IMG/VR virus record: IMGVR_UViG_3300028025_002417
Coordinates: 1 to 38,477 of that record
Length of the DNA stretch: 38,477 bases
Strand: one strand, 5' to 3'
Source of the DNA: a virus
In this document: piece after piece, positions 26,192-32,378 of the stretch
Layout: the number at the start of each line of letters is the position of its first letter
How positions within the stretch are numbered: position 1 is the first letter of the stretch
The notes under the pieces: model-generated
Database searches by the model: none
What the model saw: the letters and a program-made list of their open reading frames with translations, nothing else
Told to the model about the DNA's origin: nothing
Position numbers and translations under genes: made by a program

Positions 26192-26483
26192 TGGTATGGG
26201 TCCACGACAATCGATGGCTGTTGAAATTTTAGATACAGTTCGATTTGGTGGTCTTGATAAAATCAAAGGTGCTAATGGGTATTCCAAGAAAAGACTTGAC
26301 AAAGGTGATGCTTATGTGGTACCATTTGGACTCAGTAAAAATATTTTTGGTGCAGTCGTAATTTCCGCTCCGAAAAGGCTATATATTACATACAGGATGA
26401 ATAGTAAAGATAAGACTGTGCGAATGACTAACGCATGGGAAGTGAAACGATTCTTGGTGAAGCAATTCATTCAGAATATTTAA
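26181..26483 (+). CDS. Hypothetical protein (100 residues)
   Basis: ATG 26181 is chosen by AAGGA (26171-26175) 5 bases upstream. Starts MYIDGMGPRQSMAVEILD; basic, soluble. Last gene before the structured RNA at 26484. The upstream gene's end overlaps it by 11 bases. Confidence 0.68.
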   Translation: MYIDGMGPRQSMAVEILDTVRFGGLDKIKGANGYSKKRLDKGDAYVVPFGLSKNIFGAVVISAPKRLYITYRMNSKDKTVRMTNAWEVKRFLVKQFIQNI

Positions 26484-26700
26484 AGAACGTTTCGGGTTAG
26501 TCTCCGAATACTGTGACCCACAGGATAAGAAGTAGCGTGACAACTACGGGTGGTAGTCTTTGAACCGAAAGGCCGCTGGCAATGCGAGAACGGAGCCTGT
26601 CGGGAAGCGGGTGGAAGGAACGTGTGATGGGTATGATAGCGTCATATCTTGATGTTCTATAATTACCGCCGAGGTTCGCAGAGCATTTTATGAATTGAGA
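26484..26700 (+). ncRNA. Candidate structured RNA / cis-regulatory leader before mazG-like gene
   Basis: No convincing coding potential, and visibly richer in G+C than the surrounding genes. Many short stems can be drawn: TTCGG (26491) with CCGAA (26504); CTGTG with CACAG (26511-26523); GTAG with CTAC (26532-26547); CCGCT (26573) with AGCGG (26606); TATGA with TCATA (around 26632). An outer pairing ACGTTTC (26487-26493) with GGAACGT (26617-26623) closes most of it. GAAGTAG (26529-26535) and GAAGGAACG (26614-26622) recall the conserved parts of the glutamine riboswitch (glnA / Downstream-peptide) class. That match is partial and may be chance. Confidence 0.5.
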
Positions 26701-26712
26701 AAAGGTTAGATA

Positions 26713-26994
26713 ATGAATAGTGTTGAAAAAGAAGTTTTACTCATTGCACAAGAAGAATGTGCCGAAGTGACACAGGCAATCAGTAAAGTTTTTAGGTTTG
26801 GTTTAGATGGTGAACACAATGGTGCATCCAACCGAGACAGATTGACAGAAGAAGTTGGTGATTTATTTTGTATGATTCAATTGATGATTGAAACAGGTAT
26901 CATTAACATTGATGAAGTAGATAGAGCATCCGCAAACAAGAAAGCAAAACTCCAGAAATGGTCTAATATTTTTAACGAAGAAACAGTAAACTAA
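26713..26994 (+). CDS. MazG-like nucleotide pyrophosphohydrolase
   Basis: 93 residues. EECAEVTQAISK and LTEEVGDLFCM form the EExxE...ExxD metal site of the all-alpha NTP pyrophosphatase family. It would hydrolyse (d)NTPs or alarmone-like nucleotides, as other phage MazG proteins are thought to do, easing host starvation signals. It lies between the structured RNA and the attenuator-like leader. Confidence 0.85.
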   Translation: MNSVEKEVLLIAQEECAEVTQAISKVFRFGLDGEHNGASNRDRLTEEVGDLFCMIQLMIETGIINIDEVDRASANKKAKLQKWSNIFNEETVN

Positions 26995-26995
26995 A

Positions 26996-27112
26996 ATGAA
27001 TTTAATATCGAAACTCTCAACAAGAAATTATATGCCGATTACGTGGCAGAGTATTTCTCGCTTTGAGAAATCCGATTGCCATTCACCACTAGTGGGGGCT
27101 TGTTATACCTGA
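26996..27112 (+). CDS. Possible 38-residue leader peptide
   Basis: Starts one base after the mazG-like stop codon. MNLISKLSTRNYMPITW... reads to a stop at 27110-27112. It has no strong ribosome site, but translation could be coupled to the upstream gene. Its stop lies 6 bases after the 5' arm (27094-27103) of a stem that competes with the terminator at 27148. A ribosome at that stop would cover the arm. It may equally be non-coding. Confidence 0.35.
   Translation: MNLISKLSTRNYMPITWQSISRFEKSDCHSPLVGACYT
27044..27081 (+). promoter_or_regulatory. Hairpin in tRNA-array leader
   Basis: TGGCA (27044) pairs with TGCCA (27077); inside, ATTTCTC (27053-27059), loop GCTTT, GAGAAAT (27065-27071) gives a perfect 7-bp stem. 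Part of the structured leader before the attenuator. Confidence 0.6.
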
Positions 27113-27152
27113 GGACCAAAAAAGTCCATAGAGAATATAAAGACAAGCCCCC
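27094..27152 (+). promoter_or_regulatory. Antiterminator-like stem overlapping the terminator
   Basis: GGGGGCTTGT (27094-27103) is the exact complement of ACAAGCCCCC (27143-27152). The CCCCC (27148-27152) is also the start of the terminator stem, so the two structures exclude each other. A GGAC/GTCC hairpin lies inside the loop. Confidence 0.68.
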
Positions 27153-27181
27153 TAGAGACAGAAAACTCTAGGGGGTTTTTC
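27148..27181 (+). terminator. Strong rho-independent terminator (switchable)
   Basis: CCCCCTAGAG (27148-27157), loop ACAGAAAA, CTCTAGGGGG (27166-27175), then TTTTTC. A perfect 10-bp stem. It lies 65 bases before the first tRNA. Confidence 0.88.
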
Positions 27182-27211
27182 TTTGTGTATATCATCGAAT
27201 ATAACAAAAAC

Positions 27212-27226
27212 GTTCTTTAACAATTT
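27212..27226 (+). promoter_or_regulatory. rRNA-type boxA antitermination element
   Basis: GTTCTTTAACAATTT matches the boxA of proteobacterial rRNA leaders (TGCTCTTTAACAATTT in E. coli) almost base for base. It sits 20 bases before the first tRNA gene and just after the terminator. Confidence 0.7.
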
Positions 27227-27245
27227 GCATCCATATTTTTTATGT

Positions 27246-27319
27246 TGGGGGTTAGTGTAGCGGTAGCACACCAGACTTTGACTCTGTTAGCACAAGTTCG
27301 ATCCTTGTACCCTCTGCCA
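27246..27319 (+). tRNA. tRNA-Gln (TTG)
   Basis: Cloverleaf with anticodon loop CTTTGAC and T-loop TTCGATC; encoded CCA. The first acceptor pair is U1-U72, as weak first pairs are typical of tRNA-Gln. First gene of the array. Confidence 0.88.
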
Positions 27320-27326
27320 AATAAAA

Positions 27327-27401
27327 GGTGACATAGCACAGCGGTAGTGCAACTGCTTCATACGCAGTAGGTCGTTGGCTCGAATCCAACTGTCACCACC
27401 A
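27327..27401 (+). tRNA. tRNA-Met (CAT), elongator-like
   Basis: Acceptor GGTGACA/TGTCACC fully paired, loop TTCATAC in an ACTGC/GCAGT stem, encoded CCA. A normal G1-C72 pair makes an initiator role unlikely. Confidence 0.88.
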
Positions 27402-27405
27402 ATTT

Positions 27406-27480
27406 GGGGGTATAACTCAACGGCTAGAGTAGTAGGCTTTTAACCTATTAATCCGAGTTCGATTCTCGGTGCCCCTACCA
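27406..27480 (+). tRNA. tRNA-Lys (TTT)
   Basis: Acceptor GGGGGTA/TGCCCCT, anticodon loop CTTTTAA, T-loop TTCGATT, encoded CCA. Its last base is also the first base of the 15-bp stem at 27480. Confidence 0.9.
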
Positions 27481-27547
27481 TATAAAAACACATTGCCGTA
27501 CACGAGGCGTCCGTGGCATATAAAGAGAAAGTAATGTGTTTTTATAT
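27480..27547 (+). ncRNA. Stem-closed RNA insert between tRNA-Lys and tRNA-His
   Basis: ATATAAAAACACATT (27480-27494) pairs perfectly with AATGTGTTTTTATAT (27533-27547). The 38-base inside has a further CACG/CGTG hairpin and GC/GC flank. The stem starts at the CCA end of tRNA-Lys and ends one base before tRNA-His. Confidence 0.65.
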
Positions 27548-27622
27548 GGTGTCTATGATGTAGTGGTAGCATTAGGGATTGTGATTCCCTCCGTATGAGT
27601 TCGATCCTCATTAGACACCCCA
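27548..27622 (+). tRNA. tRNA-His (GTG)
   Basis: Acceptor GTGTCTA/TAGACAC with the histidine-specific extra G at 27548 opposite discriminator C; loop TTGTGAT. Encoded CCA. Confidence 0.92.
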
Positions 27623-27623
27623 T

Positions 27624-27698
27624 GCCTTGTTAACTCAGCGGTAGAGTGTCTCCCTTACAAGGAGAAGGTCGGCGGTTCGATCCCGTCACAAGGTACCA
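27624..27698 (+). tRNA. tRNA-Val (TAC)
   Basis: Acceptor GCCTTGT/ACAAGGT, stem TCTCC/GGAGA around loop CTTACAA, encoded CCA. Confidence 0.9.
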
Positions 27699-27704
27699 GA
27701 TTTT

Positions 27705-27778
27705 GCTCGGTTAGTTAAATGGTATAACGGACGCTTGATAAGCGTTTATTACAAGTTCAATTCTTGTACTGAGCACCA
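27705..27778 (+). tRNA. tRNA-Ile (GAT)
   Basis: Acceptor GCTCGGT/ACTGAGC, loop TTGATAA, T-loop TTCAATT, encoded CCA. Confidence 0.9.
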
Positions 27779-27781
27779 AAT

Positions 27782-27864
27782 GCCCCGATGGTGGAATGGT
27801 AGACACGCTGGTCTTAGAAGCCAGTGCCTAGTGCGTGAGAGTTCGAGTCTCTCTTGGGGCACCA
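27782..27864 (+). tRNA. tRNA-Leu (TAG)
   Basis: Acceptor GCCCCGA/TTGGGGC, loop CTTAGAA, long variable arm, encoded CCA. Confidence 0.9.
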
Positions 27865-27870
27865 GATTAT

Positions 27871-27945
27871 GCGCCTTTAGTAAAATGAATATTACACAAC
27901 GCTACGAACGTTGAAGTGGGAGTTTGATTCTCTCAGGGCGCACCA
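27871..27945 (+). tRNA. tRNA-Arg (ACG), unusual D and T loops
   Basis: Acceptor GCGCCTT/AGGGCGC, stem CAACG/CGTTG around CTACGAA, encoded CCA. The D-loop lacks the usual GG pair and the T-loop reads TTTGATT rather than TTCGATT, so the G19-C56 contact is lost on both sides. Confidence 0.82.
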
Positions 27946-27947
27946 AT

Positions 27948-28023
27948 GCAACTTTAGCTGATGTGGTCATAGCGGTGGTCTGAAGAGCCATTGAAAGAGG
28001 TTCGATTCCTCTAGGTTGCACCA
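27948..28023 (+). tRNA. tRNA-Phe (GAA)
   Basis: Acceptor GCAACTT/AGGTTGC, loop CTGAAGA, encoded CCA. Confidence 0.9.
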
Positions 28024-28029
28024 AGATAT

Positions 28030-28121
28030 GGAAGATAATGCAGGTGGGATGGTCCGCCGACTAGCCTTGAAAACTAGGTTCTCAGAAATGGGATGGGGTT
28101 CGACTCCTCTGTCTTCCGCCA
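28030..28121 (+). tRNA. tRNA-Ser (TGA)
   Basis: Acceptor GGAAGAT/GTCTTCC with G discriminator, loop CTTGAAA, long variable arm, encoded CCA. Confidence 0.9.
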
Positions 28122-28128
28122 AAATTAT

Positions 28129-28216
28129 AGAGAGTTGGGTGAGTGGTTAAACCAGCAGTTTGCTAAACTGTCATTGCGAAAGCGGTGCATGAGTTCGAAT
28201 CTCATACTCTCTGCCA
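28129..28216 (+). tRNA. tRNA-Ser (GCT)
   Basis: Acceptor AGAGAGT/ACTCTCT with G discriminator, loop TTGCTAA, long variable arm, encoded CCA. Confidence 0.9.
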
Positions 28217-28225
28217 AGAATGTAG

Positions 28226-28254
28226 TTGACAAAAAGTGTGTAGAGTGTTATACT
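28226..28254 (+). promoter_or_regulatory. Sigma70-type promoter inside the tRNA array, spacer 17
   Basis: TTGACA (28226-28231), 17 bases, TATACT (28249-28254). It would drive tRNA-Glu onward independently of the attenuated leader. Confidence 0.82.
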
Positions 28255-28277
28255 CTATTCATAGATTAAAAAAGTAT

Positions 28278-28352
28278 GCACGATTCGTCTATCGGTTAGG
28301 ACTCAGGGTTTTCATCCCTGCAAGAGGAGTTCGATTCTCCTATCGTGTACCA
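28278..28352 (+). tRNA. tRNA-Glu (TTC)
   Basis: Acceptor GCACGAT/ATCGTGT, stem CAGGG/CCCTG around TTTTCAT, encoded CCA. Confidence 0.9.
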
Positions 28353-28360
28353 GAGTTAAT

Positions 28361-28453
28361 GGAGTAATTGATGCTATGGCGTGTGCATCGGCGGACTGTA
28401 AATCCGTCCCCTTGTGGTAAACATTCTTGGTTCGACTCCAAGTTACTCCACCA
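28361..28453 (+). tRNA. tRNA-Tyr (GTA)
   Basis: Acceptor GGAGTAA/TTACTCC, loop CTGTAAA, long variable arm, encoded CCA. Confidence 0.9.
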
Positions 28454-28459
28454 AGTTTA

Positions 28460-28534
28460 GGTCTGTTCGTATAGTGGTTATTACTGCGGATTGTCTATCC
28501 GCTTACAGGAGTTCGATTCTCCTACAGACCGCCA
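28460..28534 (+). tRNA. tRNA-Asp (GTC)
   Basis: Acceptor GGTCTGT/ACAGACC with G discriminator, stem GCGGA/TCCGC around TTGTCTA, encoded CCA. Confidence 0.9.
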
Positions 28535-28542
28535 AGTTTTAT

Positions 28543-28618
28543 GTGAGTGTGCGCCGAATGGTTAGGTAGCAGATTGCAAATCTGAATAATGCAGGTTCGA
28601 GTCCTGTCACTCACTCCA
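28543..28618 (+). tRNA. tRNA-Cys (GCA)
   Basis: Acceptor GTGAGTG/CACTCAC with the cysteine-type T discriminator, loop TTGCAAA, encoded CCA. Confidence 0.9.
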
Positions 28619-28632
28619 TACATATATATTAT

Positions 28633-28708
28633 AGCGGGTTACGTCAGAGGTCAGACTATCAGGCTCATAACCTGGGAGACGAAGGTTCGAATCCTTCACC
28701 CGCAACCA
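28633..28708 (+). tRNA. tRNA-Met (CAT), initiator-like
   Basis: Acceptor AGCGGGT/ACCCGCA leaves an A1-A72 mismatch; initiator tRNAs also lack a 1-72 pair (C1-A72). Loop CTCATAA within AGG/CCT. The full GGG/CCC run of bacterial initiators is incomplete, so the initiator role is tentative. Encoded CCA. Confidence 0.82.
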
Positions 28709-28715
28709 TTTTTAT

Positions 28716-28791
28716 TCCTCAGTAGCACAGCGGTAGTTGCACTTGACTGTTAATCAAGGTGTCCGTGGTTCGATCCCACGCTGAGGAGCCA
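28716..28791 (+). tRNA. tRNA-Asn (GTT)
   Basis: Acceptor TCCTCAG/CTGAGGA with G discriminator, stem CTTGA/TCAAG around CTGTTAA, encoded CCA. Confidence 0.9.
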
Positions 28792-28806
28792 ATTACAAAG
28801 AAGAAT

Positions 28807-29556
28807 ATGAAAAAAATAATCTTGTCTCTAATTTTGTTTACGTGCTTGAGTGCTAGTGCTGGTGCTATTACAGTCTACACATACAACATTACTAAACAGT
28901 ATCCAATTGTTGATGCTGAAATTGATAAAATGAGACCAATAGCAAGCATTACGAAATTGATGACTGCATTGGTGTTACTTGAGAGTGGAGTTTCGTTAGA
29001 TGAGAAAGTTCCATACAAAGGAATGTTCTACTCACACAAGAAGTTCACTAGAGAAGAGTTATTGAATTTGATGCTGGTGAAAAGTGACAACAGAGCCGCA
29101 GAAGCATTAGCAGAAAGCATGGGTGGTAAACTATGGACCGTTTATCAAATGAACAAACGTGCAATTGCGCTTGAGATGTACAATACAAAATTTGATGATA
29201 CGTCTGGTCTAAGTGCAAAGAACATTAGTACCGCAAGAGATTTAGTTATCATGTTGACAGATGCATATAAGCATGATAAGATACGTGAGATATCTGCATT
29301 AAGTAGATACGATTTGAAAGTTGTAGATAAGAAGAATAGAGAGAAACACATTCTAGTCAATAACACTAACGTGAAGTTGATGAACAAATATGATATCATT
29401 GAAGTATCTAAAACTGGCACAACAAATGCGGCTGGTAAGTGTCTTGTGATGATAGTACATAAGAATGGTGAGCAGTATGCAATTGTTATTCTCGGAGGCA
29501 CAACAAGAGCCGATGTAGATAACTTAGCTAAGAATATAATGGAAAGAATAATTTAA
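28807..29556 (+). CDS. D-alanyl-D-alanine endopeptidase/carboxypeptidase (PBP7-like)
   Basis: 249 residues from ATG 28807; upstream in-frame starts would run through tRNA-Asn. A signal peptide (about 1-20) exports it to the periplasm. All three penicillin-binding motifs are present: S47-I-T-K50, S93-D-N95 and K202-T-G-T205. The small size fits PBP7/PBP5-type low-molecular-mass enzymes that trim peptidoglycan cross-links. It lies between tRNA-Asn and tRNA-Thr. It may weaken or remodel the wall before lysis, or act on superinfection; both are inference. Confidence 0.9.
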   Translation: MKKIILSLILFTCLSASAGAITVYTYNITKQYPIVDAEIDKMRPIASITKLMTALVLLESGVSLDEKVPYKGMFYSHKKFTREELLNLMLVKSDNRAAEALAESMGGKLWTVYQMNKRAIALEMYNTKFDDTSGLSAKNISTARDLVIMLTDAYKHDKIREISALSRYDLKVVDKKNREKHILVNNTNVKLMNKYDIIEVSKTGTTNAAGKCLVMIVHKNGEQYAIVILGGTTRADVDNLAKNIMERII

Positions 29557-29561
29557 GTTTA

Positions 29562-29636
29562 GCCGGATTAGCACAGCGGTAGTGCAATCGCCTTGTAAGC
29601 GATAGGTCGTCTGTTCGAACCAGACATCCGGCACCA
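29562..29636 (+). tRNA. tRNA-Thr (TGT)
   Basis: Acceptor GCCGGAT/ATCCGGC, stem ATCGC/GCGAT around CTTGTAA, encoded CCA. Its last base starts the stem at 29636. Confidence 0.9.
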
Positions 29637-29801
29637 TATTTGTTAAGTGTGTGTGAGAAAGTGTTTAGCCGACAGCCTAACTATCAAGGTGAATAACCAT
29701 CCTTCTATGCAATCCAATCCGATGGCTACGGGCATACTGCAATAGAATGTGAGAGTCAAGTAACAGTCTCTTAAACATGCGATAGTACACTTAACAAATA
29801 T
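29636..29801 (+). ncRNA. Stem-closed structured RNA between tRNA-Thr and tRNA-Pro
   Basis: ATATTTGTTAAGTGT (29636-29650) pairs perfectly with ACACTTAACAAATAT (29787-29801), plus two wobble pairs inside. The roughly 135-base interior shows further short stems: TTAG/CTAA near 29670, CCA/TGG around 29720, CTAT..ATAG and GAGA/TCTC (29752-29770). No ORF with a start and ribosome site is seen on the plus strand. Same plan as the smaller insert at 27480. Confidence 0.65.
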
Positions 29802-29808
29802 ATAAATA
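29801..29808 (+). promoter_or_regulatory. Possible T4-type late promoter core
   Basis: An exact TATAAATA immediately before tRNA-Pro. It overlaps the end of the stem at 29787-29801. Context is AT-rich, so chance is possible. Confidence 0.4.
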
Positions 29809-29809
29809 T

Positions 29810-29883
29810 CTCGGTATGGTGAAATGGTATCATTCGTGGTTTGGGACCATGAGGCGCAAGTTCGATTCTTGCTACCGAGACCA
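29810..29883 (+). tRNA. tRNA-Pro (TGG)
   Basis: Acceptor CTCGGTA/TACCGAG, stem CGTGG/CCATG around TTTGGGA, encoded CCA. Confidence 0.9.
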
Positions 29884-29887
29884 ATTT

Positions 29888-29962
29888 GGGGGATTAGTGA
29901 TAATGGGAGCACATGTGCTTTGCAAGCATGAAGTGGGAGTTCGATCCTCCCATCCTCCACCA
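29888..29962 (+). tRNA. tRNA-Ala (TGC)
   Basis: Acceptor GGGGGAT/ATCCTCC, loop TTTGCAA, encoded CCA. Confidence 0.9.
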
Positions 29963-30005
29963 TTAATGTAGTAGTATAAAAACAATATAAGAGTGAAAGT
30001 ATAAA

Positions 30006-30452
30006 ATGTTATATCTAATAAAATCATTTACTGATAGTGTAATGAATATGTTAAGTGAGGATCCTGTGCGTCCTCACATTCCACATGTTGACAGAGTTGG
30101 CGACAACAAAGATATCTTTGTGTTGCGTGATGAAAATGAACAAGTGAAAGCAATTACATGTGTAAGTTATCAAACAGAAATTCCAACAAAAGAAACAGAG
30201 TTATTTCAAGTATCATCTGAACCTGTTGTTGCAATTTTTTATACCATTTGGAGTTATGCTCCAGGTGCCGGTCGCACATTAATTTTTGATGCAGTTAGAC
30301 ATATCAAAGAAAACAAACCAGAAATTCAAAGATACGTTACGCTAAGTCCAAAGACTGAAATGGCTAAACGTTTTCATTTGCGTAATGGTGCAGTTGTTTT
30401 CAGAGAGAATGAGGACACAGTTAACTACGAATATCATAGGGTGATTTTATGA
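30006..30452 (+). CDS. Acetyltransferase-like conserved phage protein
   Basis: 148 residues. The stretch VVAIFYTIWSYAPGAGRTLI resembles the acetyl-CoA-binding beta-bulge and glycine loop of GNAT enzymes, and VTLSPKTEMAKRFHLRNGA fits the C-terminal strand region. DPVRPHIP near the start is, from memory, typical of this phage family. Substrate unknown. Overlaps the next start by 4 bases; four genes run from here between the tRNA blocks. Confidence 0.72.
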   Translation: MLYLIKSFTDSVMNMLSEDPVRPHIPHVDRVGDNKDIFVLRDENEQVKAITCVSYQTEIPTKETELFQVSSEPVVAIFYTIWSYAPGAGRTLIFDAVRHIKENKPEIQRYVTLSPKTEMAKRFHLRNGAVVFRENEDTVNYEYHRVIL

Positions 30453-30751
30453 GTGATGGTGGAAAAGGAAGCGCACCACGTCCATTTAGCGTGAGTCAAG
30501 AAGAATTTGCAAATAACTTTGATGCAATCTTTCGCAAGAATATCAAAGCGGCTGAAGAAATTCATTCTGACAAAGGATATGAATTGGGCACTAAAGAAGG
30601 CTACGAAGAATTCAATAAGAAACGACAAGATGCGTTAGACAAGTTGCATACAGCCAATGAAGAGTTGGGTTTGTATGATGATGAGTATGAAGCAATTCAT
30701 AAGTACAATGAAGAAACTAAAGAAGTTAAGTTCAGGCAATTGAACAAATGA
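30449..30751 (+). CDS. Conserved phage protein starting MSDGGKGSAPRPFSV
   Basis: 100 residues, helical and charged after the N-terminal motif. MSDGGKGSxPRPFSVxQEEFxNNFDAIF is a well-known start of a small protein in many T4-like and other phages; function unknown. It overlaps both neighbours by 4 bases. Confidence 0.8.
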   Translation: MSDGGKGSAPRPFSVSQEEFANNFDAIFRKNIKAAEEIHSDKGYELGTKEGYEEFNKKRQDALDKLHTANEELGLYDDEYEAIHKYNEETKEVKFRQLNK

Positions 30752-31407
30752 AAGTCGAATTACATAAATTATTCTACACTCCAGTCTGGAGATTTCACTA
30801 TCCAGACTTTGAGAATGACCAAGAGTTCTTAGTGCGATATCTTGCACAAGATAATCTATATCTTTCTGAACGTGAGAAGAATGGGCTTCAAATCACTAGA
30901 GCAAACTTACACAAAGACGCTAAAGTAAAGAAGCTAACAGACTTCATTCACAGTTGTGGTAAGTATGCAATGGATGATATGGGTTACTCTGATTCATGTG
31001 GCATTACAAGTATGTGGGCTACTAGACAAAAAGCTGGTGGGTTTCATCATATGCACAGTCATGCGAATAGTTTCTTAGGTGGTTCATTTCATTTGTTTGA
31101 TGCTGATGGTAATGCAAGCGGAACAGTATTCCCGAATCTAAGTGCAGAGAAATATGTATTGCAACCCGCAATCTCAGGTAAGAATGAATTGATGTTGAAG
31201 TCGCAACAAGAGTTACCTTTTGTTCCAGGAACGTTAGTTATGTTTCCCGCATGGGCAACGCACCAAACAAGTCCTACTGATTGTAATTATAGAATCATTG
31301 TTGGCGTGAACATTATGCCAATTGGTAAAACTAATTTTGACCACTTTGATAGATATAATTTTCCTAGTACTGAAGACATGCAATTGATGGAGTATGGTGA
31401 TGAGTAA
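30748..31407 (+). CDS. 2OG-Fe(II) oxygenase (putative, TIGR02466-like)
   Basis: 219 residues. A double-stranded beta-helix with the metal ligands in GFHHMHSHANSFLGG (H-x-N form) and WATHQTSPT; the 2-oxoglutarate-binding arginine is in YRIIVGVNI. Such enzymes hydroxylate proteins, sugars or nucleic acids. It overlaps the next oxygenase gene by 8 bases, so the two are expressed together. Target unknown. Confidence 0.8.
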   Translation: MKVELHKLFYTPVWRFHYPDFENDQEFLVRYLAQDNLYLSEREKNGLQITRANLHKDAKVKKLTDFIHSCGKYAMDDMGYSDSCGITSMWATRQKAGGFHHMHSHANSFLGGSFHLFDADGNASGTVFPNLSAEKYVLQPAISGKNELMLKSQQELPFVPGTLVMFPAWATHQTSPTDCNYRIIVGVNIMPIGKTNFDHFDRYNFPSTEDMQLMEYGDE

Positions 31408-31927
31408 CTTCAGATTCATTGAAACTGGAATTGACATAAGTAAAATTCTAGAACAGATTGAAGATAAAGATTGGCAAGCAGTTTCTACGTATTCTAAGAT
31501 TGGCGGAGAACAAAACCCATATGGGTTTCTTCCTTTAGTCATGGCGATGGTTCGTAGTCCAGATGAGAATCCTAAAAACTCCGATTTGCAAAGACGCACA
31601 CCACTCTATGATAAGTATACAGAAGTGAGAAAGTATCTTAAGAAGCACGGCATTACGCAAACTTCAAGAGCCGCATTCTTCAAGTTGAATCCGAACGATA
31701 GTGTTGGACGCCACATTGATGATGGCACATATTATGCAACAAGAGACAGATATCATTTATCATTACAAGGCACTTACTTATATGAAGTAGATGGTGAAGA
31801 AATACAAATAGAACCAGGAACATTTTTCTGGTTCGATAATAAGAAATATCATTCTGCGTGGAACAATGGTACAGTAGACAGAATTACATTCGTGTTTGAC
31901 GTACCACATTCTGCAAAGAATCCATAA
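31400..31927 (+). CDS. Aspartyl/asparaginyl beta-hydroxylase-like 2OG-Fe(II) oxygenase
   Basis: 175 residues; ATG 31400 is chosen by GGAG (31389-31392) 7 bases upstream. Metal site H-x-D in VGRHIDDG and the distal histidine in NKKYHSAWN; the closing RITFVFDVPHS carries the oxoglutarate arginine. This matches the AspH-type family. A second, different oxygenase lies just upstream. It ends 1 base before tRNA-Trp. Confidence 0.85.
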   Translation: MSNFRFIETGIDISKILEQIEDKDWQAVSTYSKIGGEQNPYGFLPLVMAMVRSPDENPKNSDLQRRTPLYDKYTEVRKYLKKHGITQTSRAAFFKLNPNDSVGRHIDDGTYYATRDRYHLSLQGTYLYEVDGEEIQIEPGTFFWFDNKKYHSAWNNGTVDRITFVFDVPHSAKNP

Positions 31928-31928
31928 T

Positions 31929-32002
31929 TACTCACTGGTGTAATGGCAGCATCACGGTCTCCAAAACCGTTGGTCGGGGTTCGAGTCCCTGGTGGGTAGC
32001 CA
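31929..32002 (+). tRNA. tRNA-Trp (CCA)
   Basis: Acceptor TACTCAC/GTGGGTA, stem ACGGT/ACCGT around CTCCAAA, encoded CCA with G discriminator. Confidence 0.9.
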
Positions 32003-32009
32003 AAAATAT

Positions 32010-32083
32010 GCGGGGTTCGTAAAATGGTATTACCTCAGTCTTCCAAACTGAAGTCAGGAGTTCGATTCTCCTACCCCGCTCCA
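32010..32083 (+). tRNA. tRNA-Gly (TCC)
   Basis: Acceptor GCGGGGT/ACCCCGC with T discriminator, stem TCAGT/ACTGA around CTTCCAA, encoded CCA. Confidence 0.9.
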
Positions 32084-32084
32084 C

Positions 32085-32113
32085 TTGACTTATAAATCAA
32101 TATAAACTATACT
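32085..32113 (+). promoter_or_regulatory. Sigma70-type promoter before tRNA-Arg (TCT), spacer 17
   Basis: TTGACT (32085-32090), 17 bases, TATACT (32108-32113). A second internal promoter of the array. Confidence 0.75.
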
Positions 32114-32132
32114 ACGTGTATAGAAATTAATT

Positions 32133-32209
32133 CTGACTGTAGCTCAGTAGGATAGAGCAACGGATTTCTAATCCGTCGGTCGGGGGTTCGAATCCCTCCA
32201 GTCAGGCCA
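32133..32209 (+). tRNA. tRNA-Arg (TCT)
   Basis: Acceptor CTGACTG/CAGTCAG, stem ACGGA/TCCGT around TTTCTAA, encoded CCA with G discriminator. Confidence 0.9.
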
Positions 32210-32214
32210 GTTAT

Positions 32215-32298
32215 GCGAGAATGGTGGAATGGTATACACAGGAGACTTAAAATCTCCCGCCGCAAGGATTGAGGGTTCGAGTCCCTCTTCTCGTACCA
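32215..32298 (+). tRNA. tRNA-Leu (TAA)
   Basis: Acceptor GCGAGAA/TTCTCGT, stem GGAGA/TCTCC around CTTAAAA, long variable arm, encoded CCA. Confidence 0.9.
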
Positions 32299-32302
32299 AT
32301 AT

Positions 32303-32378
32303 GGGCTGATAGCTTAACGGTTAAAGCAGAGGACTCATAATCCTTTGAGTGTGGGTTCGATTCCCTCTCAGCCTACCA
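32303..32378 (+). tRNA. tRNA-Ile2 or Met (CAT)
   Basis: Acceptor GGGCTGA/TCAGCCT; GGACTCATAATCC anticodon arm resembles the lysidine-modified tRNA-Ile2 of bacteria and phages. If so it reads AUA. The third CAT tRNA of the array. Encoded CCA. Confidence 0.85.

Follow-up and report, generated by a model that had tools for sequence, protein, structure and literature searches.

A putative ribosome-mediated attenuator with a leader peptide of all 20 amino acids ahead of a viral tRNA array

It is a long-standing question for what reason phages carry large tRNA arrays and at what times they use them. According to two reports, phage tRNAs stand in for host tRNAs that anticodon nucleases or retron effectors have inactivated (PMC10264068, PMC11555353), and a strong promoter of phage tRNAs is described in the latter (PMC11555353). 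Here, we analyzed a 38,477-nucleotide stretch of viral DNA (IMG/VR record IMGVR_UViG_3300028025_002417, referred to as the window), in which a short open reading frame (ORF) and an intrinsic terminator precede a tRNA array. We propose that the locus is very probably a ribosome-mediated transcription attenuator, the leader of which contains all 20 amino acids and covers nearly every tRNA decoding box. The sequence itself provides the anatomy of the switch, the pangrammatic leader, its retention across diverged leaders, the co-varying arms, and the position before tRNA arrays.

The core of the locus consists of two alternative pairings (Table 1). Arms 1 and 2 constitute a 10/10 inverted repeat, 39 nt apart, and the antiterminator and terminator pairings, which share the CCCCC of arm 2, are mutually exclusive. 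Six nucleotides separate the end of arm 1 from the leader stop codon. A first-pass annotation, made from the sequence alone, had described the perfect pairing of the arms, the CCCCC as the 5' end of a perfect 10-bp terminator stem, the inability of the two pairings to coexist, and a 38-codon leader ending 6 bases past arm 1. Each of these descriptions proved correct, the 6 bases being counted to the end of the last sense codon; the occurrence of all 20 amino acids in the leader and the boxA element had gone unnoticed. The terminator reached a score of 13 pairs in a terminator scan, and a 195-nt region of the window folds with -65.9 kcal/mol (z = -6.8). A small hairpin predicted within the antiterminator loop is still recognisable in the related loci L003, L005, L011, and L013.

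Table 1. Positions of the switch, its neighbors, and the tRNA array in the window
Feature	Position	Strand	Remarks
MazG-type nucleotide pyrophosphohydrolase gene	26713..26994	+	Pfam MazG E 7e-6; PHROG 4856 E 2e-24
Leader ORF	26996..27112	+	38 codons, all 20 amino acids
Arm 1 (antiterminator 5' arm)	27094..27103	+	GGGGGCTTGT; overlaps the last leader codons Gly-Ala-Cys
Small hairpin GGAC-CAAAAAA-GTCC	27113..27127	+	from the predicted fold; in the antiterminator loop, directly after the stop codon
Arm 2 (antiterminator 3' arm)	27143..27152	+	ACAAGCCCCC; its CCCCC opens the terminator stem
Intrinsic terminator	27148..27182	+	perfect 10-bp stem CCCCCTAGAG / CTCTAGGGGG (27148-27157 / 27166-27175), 8-nt loop, then T-rich tail TTTTTCTTT
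boxA-like element	27212..27227	+	GTTCTTTAACAATTTG, CAA variant; before the first tRNA
tRNA array	27246..32378	+	24 ARAGORN tRNAs plus a probable tRNA-Ser(UGA); 20 amino acids

The leader ATG starts 1 nt after the mazG stop codon (26992-26994), a spacing which suggests that translation of the leader is probably coupled to that of mazG. The encoded peptide, MNLISKLSTRNYMPITWQSISRFEKSDCHSPLVGACYT, contains 20/20 amino-acid kinds in 38 codons, and for each anticodon reported by ARAGORN in the window array, the leader offers at least one readable codon. Its Gly, Ala, and Val codons are confined to arm 1 or adjoining positions and are so close to this arm that a ribosome stalled there would hide it. 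The clear sensing zone of the window leader holds 17/20 residue kinds, and that of other leaders up to 20/20. In the close family of the window, the leader ORF is subject to purifying selection (pN/pS 0.35), which would also be in keeping with a functional micro-protein whose overlap with the terminator is incidental. We regard this explanation as extremely improbable, since leaders ahead of the same kind of array, although so dissimilar that grouping at 55% identity yields 17 clusters, agree in completeness, in length, and in their placement over arm 1, and since the last leader codons follow the terminator sequence.

Upstream of mazG, the window contains an intergenic element of ~230 nt (26475-26712), which some relatives share and L005 and L012 lack. 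The start of this element (26475-26492) shows 89% complementarity with the boxA region (27208-27225), and positions 26483-26712 did not fold better than shuffled sequences (z 0.01). Phages with related MazG genes (L021, L025, L026, L028, and L030) possess tmRNA genes a few kb downstream, with tags such as ANDESYALAA and ANDEKFALAA.

Completeness of the leader is not a peculiarity of the window. Relatives were collected from IMG/VR by MazG similarity and boxA patterns, neither of which selects leader content. Such leaders were found at 48 loci of other IMG/VR phages, falling into 17 sequence clusters, and 86 leaders were found by peptide similarity, with overlap between the two sets. The relatives' leaders contain 18-20 amino-acid kinds within 31-55 codons, compared to 13-16 residue kinds in control ORFs of 30-47 codons, and tRNA arrays lie downstream of nearly all of them. 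In L171, 32 residues suffice for 20 kinds (MLFCLKSTSMQPSYRSSNWEAIGFDHGFGVCV), and dissimilar leaders show the same completeness, such as those of L198 (MIKNNKIFKLLNRQFSWPTVYCSQHNDSIRAERLKGVCG) and L236 (MQSISHHSRKLDCTYAMPFVGSRTPAIWENCRGGTD). With one leader taken per cluster, 20/20 amino acids were present in 10/17 (0.24 expected) and at least 19 kinds in 16/17 (1.4 expected; Fisher p 4e-14), the expectation being derived from same-length windows of proteins from the same phages. Some cluster members were first spotted partly by their composition, and thus the sets obtained by structure only and by peptide similarity represent cleaner tests. Selection by structure only, requiring a terminator and an alternative arm of at least 8 bp, retained 39/93 unique array starts; with close relatives included, the leader ORF had at least 18 kinds in 38/39 and at least 19 in 34/39 of these. 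Among the 86 leaders found by peptide similarity, 31-42 codons in length, 73 contain all 20 amino acids and 13 contain 19, and a tRNA occurs within 900 nt downstream of 81. These leaders belong to two families and are partly loci of the first set, so they do not represent 86 independent events.

As judged from the alignments, completeness is retained while leader sequences diverge. Shuffling of alignment columns, which ignores relatedness, reduced the number of 20/20 leaders from 24/29 to 12.9+-2.2 in one family and from 13/20 to 2.0+-1.2 in a second; for the window family, the shuffling gave p = 0.025. In a further check that is independent of alignment columns, close leaders separated from a complete one by 1-4 substitutions were themselves complete in 48/61 cases, versus 54% expected under random substitution. 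A connection between a missing Phe in the leader and a missing tRNA-Phe in the array was considered and dropped, as L005 and L007 fit and L011 did not.

Sampling by the leaders extends to the level of codons and tRNAs. Both decoding boxes of Leu, Ser, and Arg, as well as AUA plus AUY of Ile, are represented in 57/68 cases. Simulations in which the peptide was fixed and synonymous codons were drawn from phage usage gave 37.3+-3.3, and 0/2000 reached 57. In 26 arrays, 480/501 anticodons have a matching leader codon, compared to 76.5+-1.7% for random gene windows of the same length and 93.4+-0.8% after synonymous randomisation. Outside the arm-constrained last six codons, leaders over-use GAG, CAG, AUA, UAU, CGC, and UGC. 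Part of this preference fits codons that are read by wobble, as would be expected under a theory in which sensitivity to charging governs the choice of leader codons (PMC1183508), although UGC and CGC are not simply accommodated. In a generalised form, leader codons thus match what the controlled operon encodes, and a run of a single amino acid is absent. An attenuator of the same anatomy might instead respond to how fast translation proceeds overall or to how many ribosomes are available, and not to particular tRNAs, with mixed codons averaging the timing; several leaders located right after a -10 box would, as probable leaderless mRNAs, sense initiation capacity. However, averaging requires neither completeness to the last residue nor its retention under divergence, and neither coverage of both decoding boxes of the six-fold degenerate amino acids nor of AUA, which makes such a speed sensor unlikely.

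Lack of covariation in related phages would, in the terms of the first-pass annotation, count against the switch. Across clusters, the arms were found to change together, as in L049 (GAGGCTTTTTG/CAAAAAGCCTC), L177 (GGGTTTTGTGT/ACACAAGACCC), and L376 (TCCCCTTAGA/TCTAAGGGGA), and changes of the antiterminator arm track the terminators. Arm complementarity was higher than in dinucleotide-shuffled upstream DNA, with a combined p = 4e-17 for one leader per cluster, where clusters may share ancestry, and p = 0.005 for the window family (400 shuffles; floor 0.0025). Individually, 4/17 cluster representatives miss p = 0.05, namely L216 and L265, and marginally L236 and L125. In the 46 leaders tested, the distance from the start of arm 1 to the downstream stop codon is 1-32 nt, implying that a terminating ribosome would cover it wholly or largely.

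A plain terminator of the mazG operon, with a coincidental upstream arm and short ORF and an array transcribed from its own promoter, would be a simpler explanation. Indeed, at 32/48 loci, e.g., L003, L007, and L013, the interval from the terminator to boxA contains a strong sigma-70 promoter (TTGACA-17-TATACT or similar). This second promoter is absent from the window (27183-27211), L002, L005, and L014, and alternative arms of at least 8 bp accompany 37/56 unique terminators with a tRNA downstream versus 25/418 without. Moreover, the leader is under coding constraint, and leaders with their own promoter and without adjoining mazG precede the same switch. Taken against these points, a plain terminator is very unlikely. 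Under the attenuator reading, the second promoter implies that in most relatives the switch controls only part of transcription, whereas in the window, L002, L005, and L014 the array seems to depend on read-through. The weight of the attenuator must thus differ between close phages, as far as predicted promoters indicate. Ahead of the leader, many loci have a near-consensus sigma-70 promoter. In about a dozen loci, 3-10 nt separate the end of its -10 box from the leader start codon, and in L159, L162, L167, L192, L249, L270, L145, and L276, the -10 box lies 6-7 nt before this codon. Such proximity suggests that these leaders are probably leaderless mRNAs, an arrangement that would keep the first ribosome closely coupled to the polymerase.

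Predicted folding provides insights into how the switch might operate. In 13/17 cluster representatives, the stability of the antiterminator hairpin, considered in isolation, equals or exceeds that of the terminator; in the window, the values are -25.0 and -22.3 kcal/mol, respectively. When the upstream RNA was masked to mimic a stalled ribosome, pairing of arm 1 with arm 2 had a probability of 0.77-1.00 before the 3' arm of the terminator was made. With a ribosome modelled at the stop codon, this probability was 0 and that of the terminator ~0.95. The comparative data support the earlier proposal of an attenuator-like switch that would couple tRNA-array transcription to translation, and they agree with the proposed polarity, in which a ribosome that has reached the stop codon favors termination. 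Once the complete terminator is allowed to form under equilibrium conditions and with the leader masked, the terminator prevails in the window (0.88 versus 0.22); it also prevails in several other loci. Hence, the switch must act kinetically, by folding order, as in classical attenuation. A leader-internal hairpin that would hide arm 1 in untranslated RNA is strong in L171 and L177, and the predicted folds of the window contain none.

These properties are compatible with the following course of events, in which we infer leader ORF translation, ribosome stalling, conditional read-through, and a function of boxA. At plentiful supply of aminoacyl-tRNAs, the ribosome would reach the stop codon and cover arm 1, arm 2 would enter the terminator, and transcription would halt before the tRNA array. 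If almost any aminoacyl-tRNA became scarce, the ribosome would stall in the leader and leave arm 1 free to capture arm 2 once the latter is transcribed. The terminator then could not form, and RNA polymerase would proceed into the boxA element and the array with its tRNAs for 20 amino acids.

A boxA is present at 37/48 leader loci; in the window, L159, L167, L177, and others, a boxA-like element immediately precedes the array. The AAAA variant in sister phages (TTGTTCTTTAAAAATTTG, 18 nt) and the boxA in rRNA leaders of Burkholderiales are identical. Matching rRNA leaders were found in Zwartia, Sheuella, and others among freshwater Burkholderiales, with 16S starting 144-229 nt downstream in nine of them. 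This identity suggests betaproteobacterial hosts, and the placement of boxA before the arrays points to a putative rRNA-type antitermination of tRNA arrays. In 120 genome contigs with TTGTTCTTTAAAAATTTG, no leader was detected ahead of tRNAs.

The window array is interspersed with protein genes. One of these, a D-alanyl-D-alanine carboxypeptidase (Peptidase_S11) gene at 28759-29556, would share the switch. The probable tRNA-Ser(UGA), at ~28029-28116, was missed by ARAGORN and the Rfam tRNA model; relatives carry tRNA-Ser(UGA) at this place. Between tRNA-Lys and tRNA-His, a perfect 18-nt inverted repeat surrounds 38 nt (27477-27550). Similar inverted-repeat units (CCATATTGAAA...) occur in other arrays, e.g., those of L268 and L354, and may be mobile elements.

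Going beyond attenuation as such, we lean, with some reservation, toward regarding the leader as a viral universal sensor of tRNA sufficiency, in which practically every tRNA species finds a codon to read and the loss of any one host tRNA would induce the complete replacement set. Its natural trigger, a less certain matter, is perhaps tRNA depletion by host tRNA-cleaving defences or host shut-off. If the switch works as proposed, the tRNA arrays of these freshwater phages would be inducible emergency sets, and the leaders would state what the phage measures, namely the availability of essentially every tRNA and not the codon bias of one gene. A universal sensor would be the first attenuator of pan-amino-acid scope, and its array the first in a phage to be induced by a sensed signal. 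The leader family represents a natural experiment in attenuator design, as codon choice and position relative to the arms can be compared across many dozens of leaders, and it would offer a ready biosensor for aminoacyl-tRNA depletion. Short pangram ORFs ahead of tRNA arrays are a searchable signature that could reveal more such systems.

Among cultured phages, blastn searches with the region returned tRNA genes as best matches, and tblastn searches with two leader peptides returned chance matches only. No such leader was present in the examined tRNA regions of DLP6, OC, PA5oct, V45v66, Cr30, A7_1, DSS3_MAL1, C48C1, and Ahp1. Stenotrophomonas phage Mendera (L531:14264-14396) has a 27-codon ORF with 16 amino-acid kinds, a 12-bp alternative arm, and a terminator ahead of tRNA-Trp and tRNA-Cys, identical or nearly so in 16 records. 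This locus may be a weaker cousin with fewer sensed residues and may provide a cultured test case. A term search of PMC10264068 and PMC11555353 found no leader peptide or attenuation. Searches of an open full-text library, preprints excepted, yielded no listed paper that connects leader peptides with control of phage tRNAs, nor did they reveal a pan-amino-acid leader for viral tRNAs.

Rfam scans of the region detected tRNAs only, apart from sub-threshold hits of His_leader and trpB around the terminator. The His_leader model (RF00514) reached 32.8 bits, below its 49-bit threshold, and the terminator hairpin aligned best; the T-box covariance model had no match in the region. T-box riboswitches likewise couple tRNA charging to transcription termination, but T-box RNA directly binds one uncharged tRNA, whereas here a translated ORF would act as the sensor. 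With rRNA-operon boxA antitermination, the locus shares the GTTCTTTAANAATTTG element, which here is situated between the switch and the tRNAs, ahead of a phage array and downstream of an attenuator. Ribosome-mediated attenuation is a known class of mechanism, and a pan-amino-acid leader on viral tRNAs appears to be new compared with the literature searched. As in the trp, his, thr, and ilvGMEDA attenuators, a short leader ORF ends over an antiterminator arm that excludes an intrinsic terminator, the position of the ribosome would select the fold, and the leader codons match the product of the operon. However, the attenuators of amino-acid operons contain runs of one or a few regulatory amino acids and control biosynthetic enzymes, whereas the leader described here contains all 20 amino acids and would control tRNAs carried by a phage.
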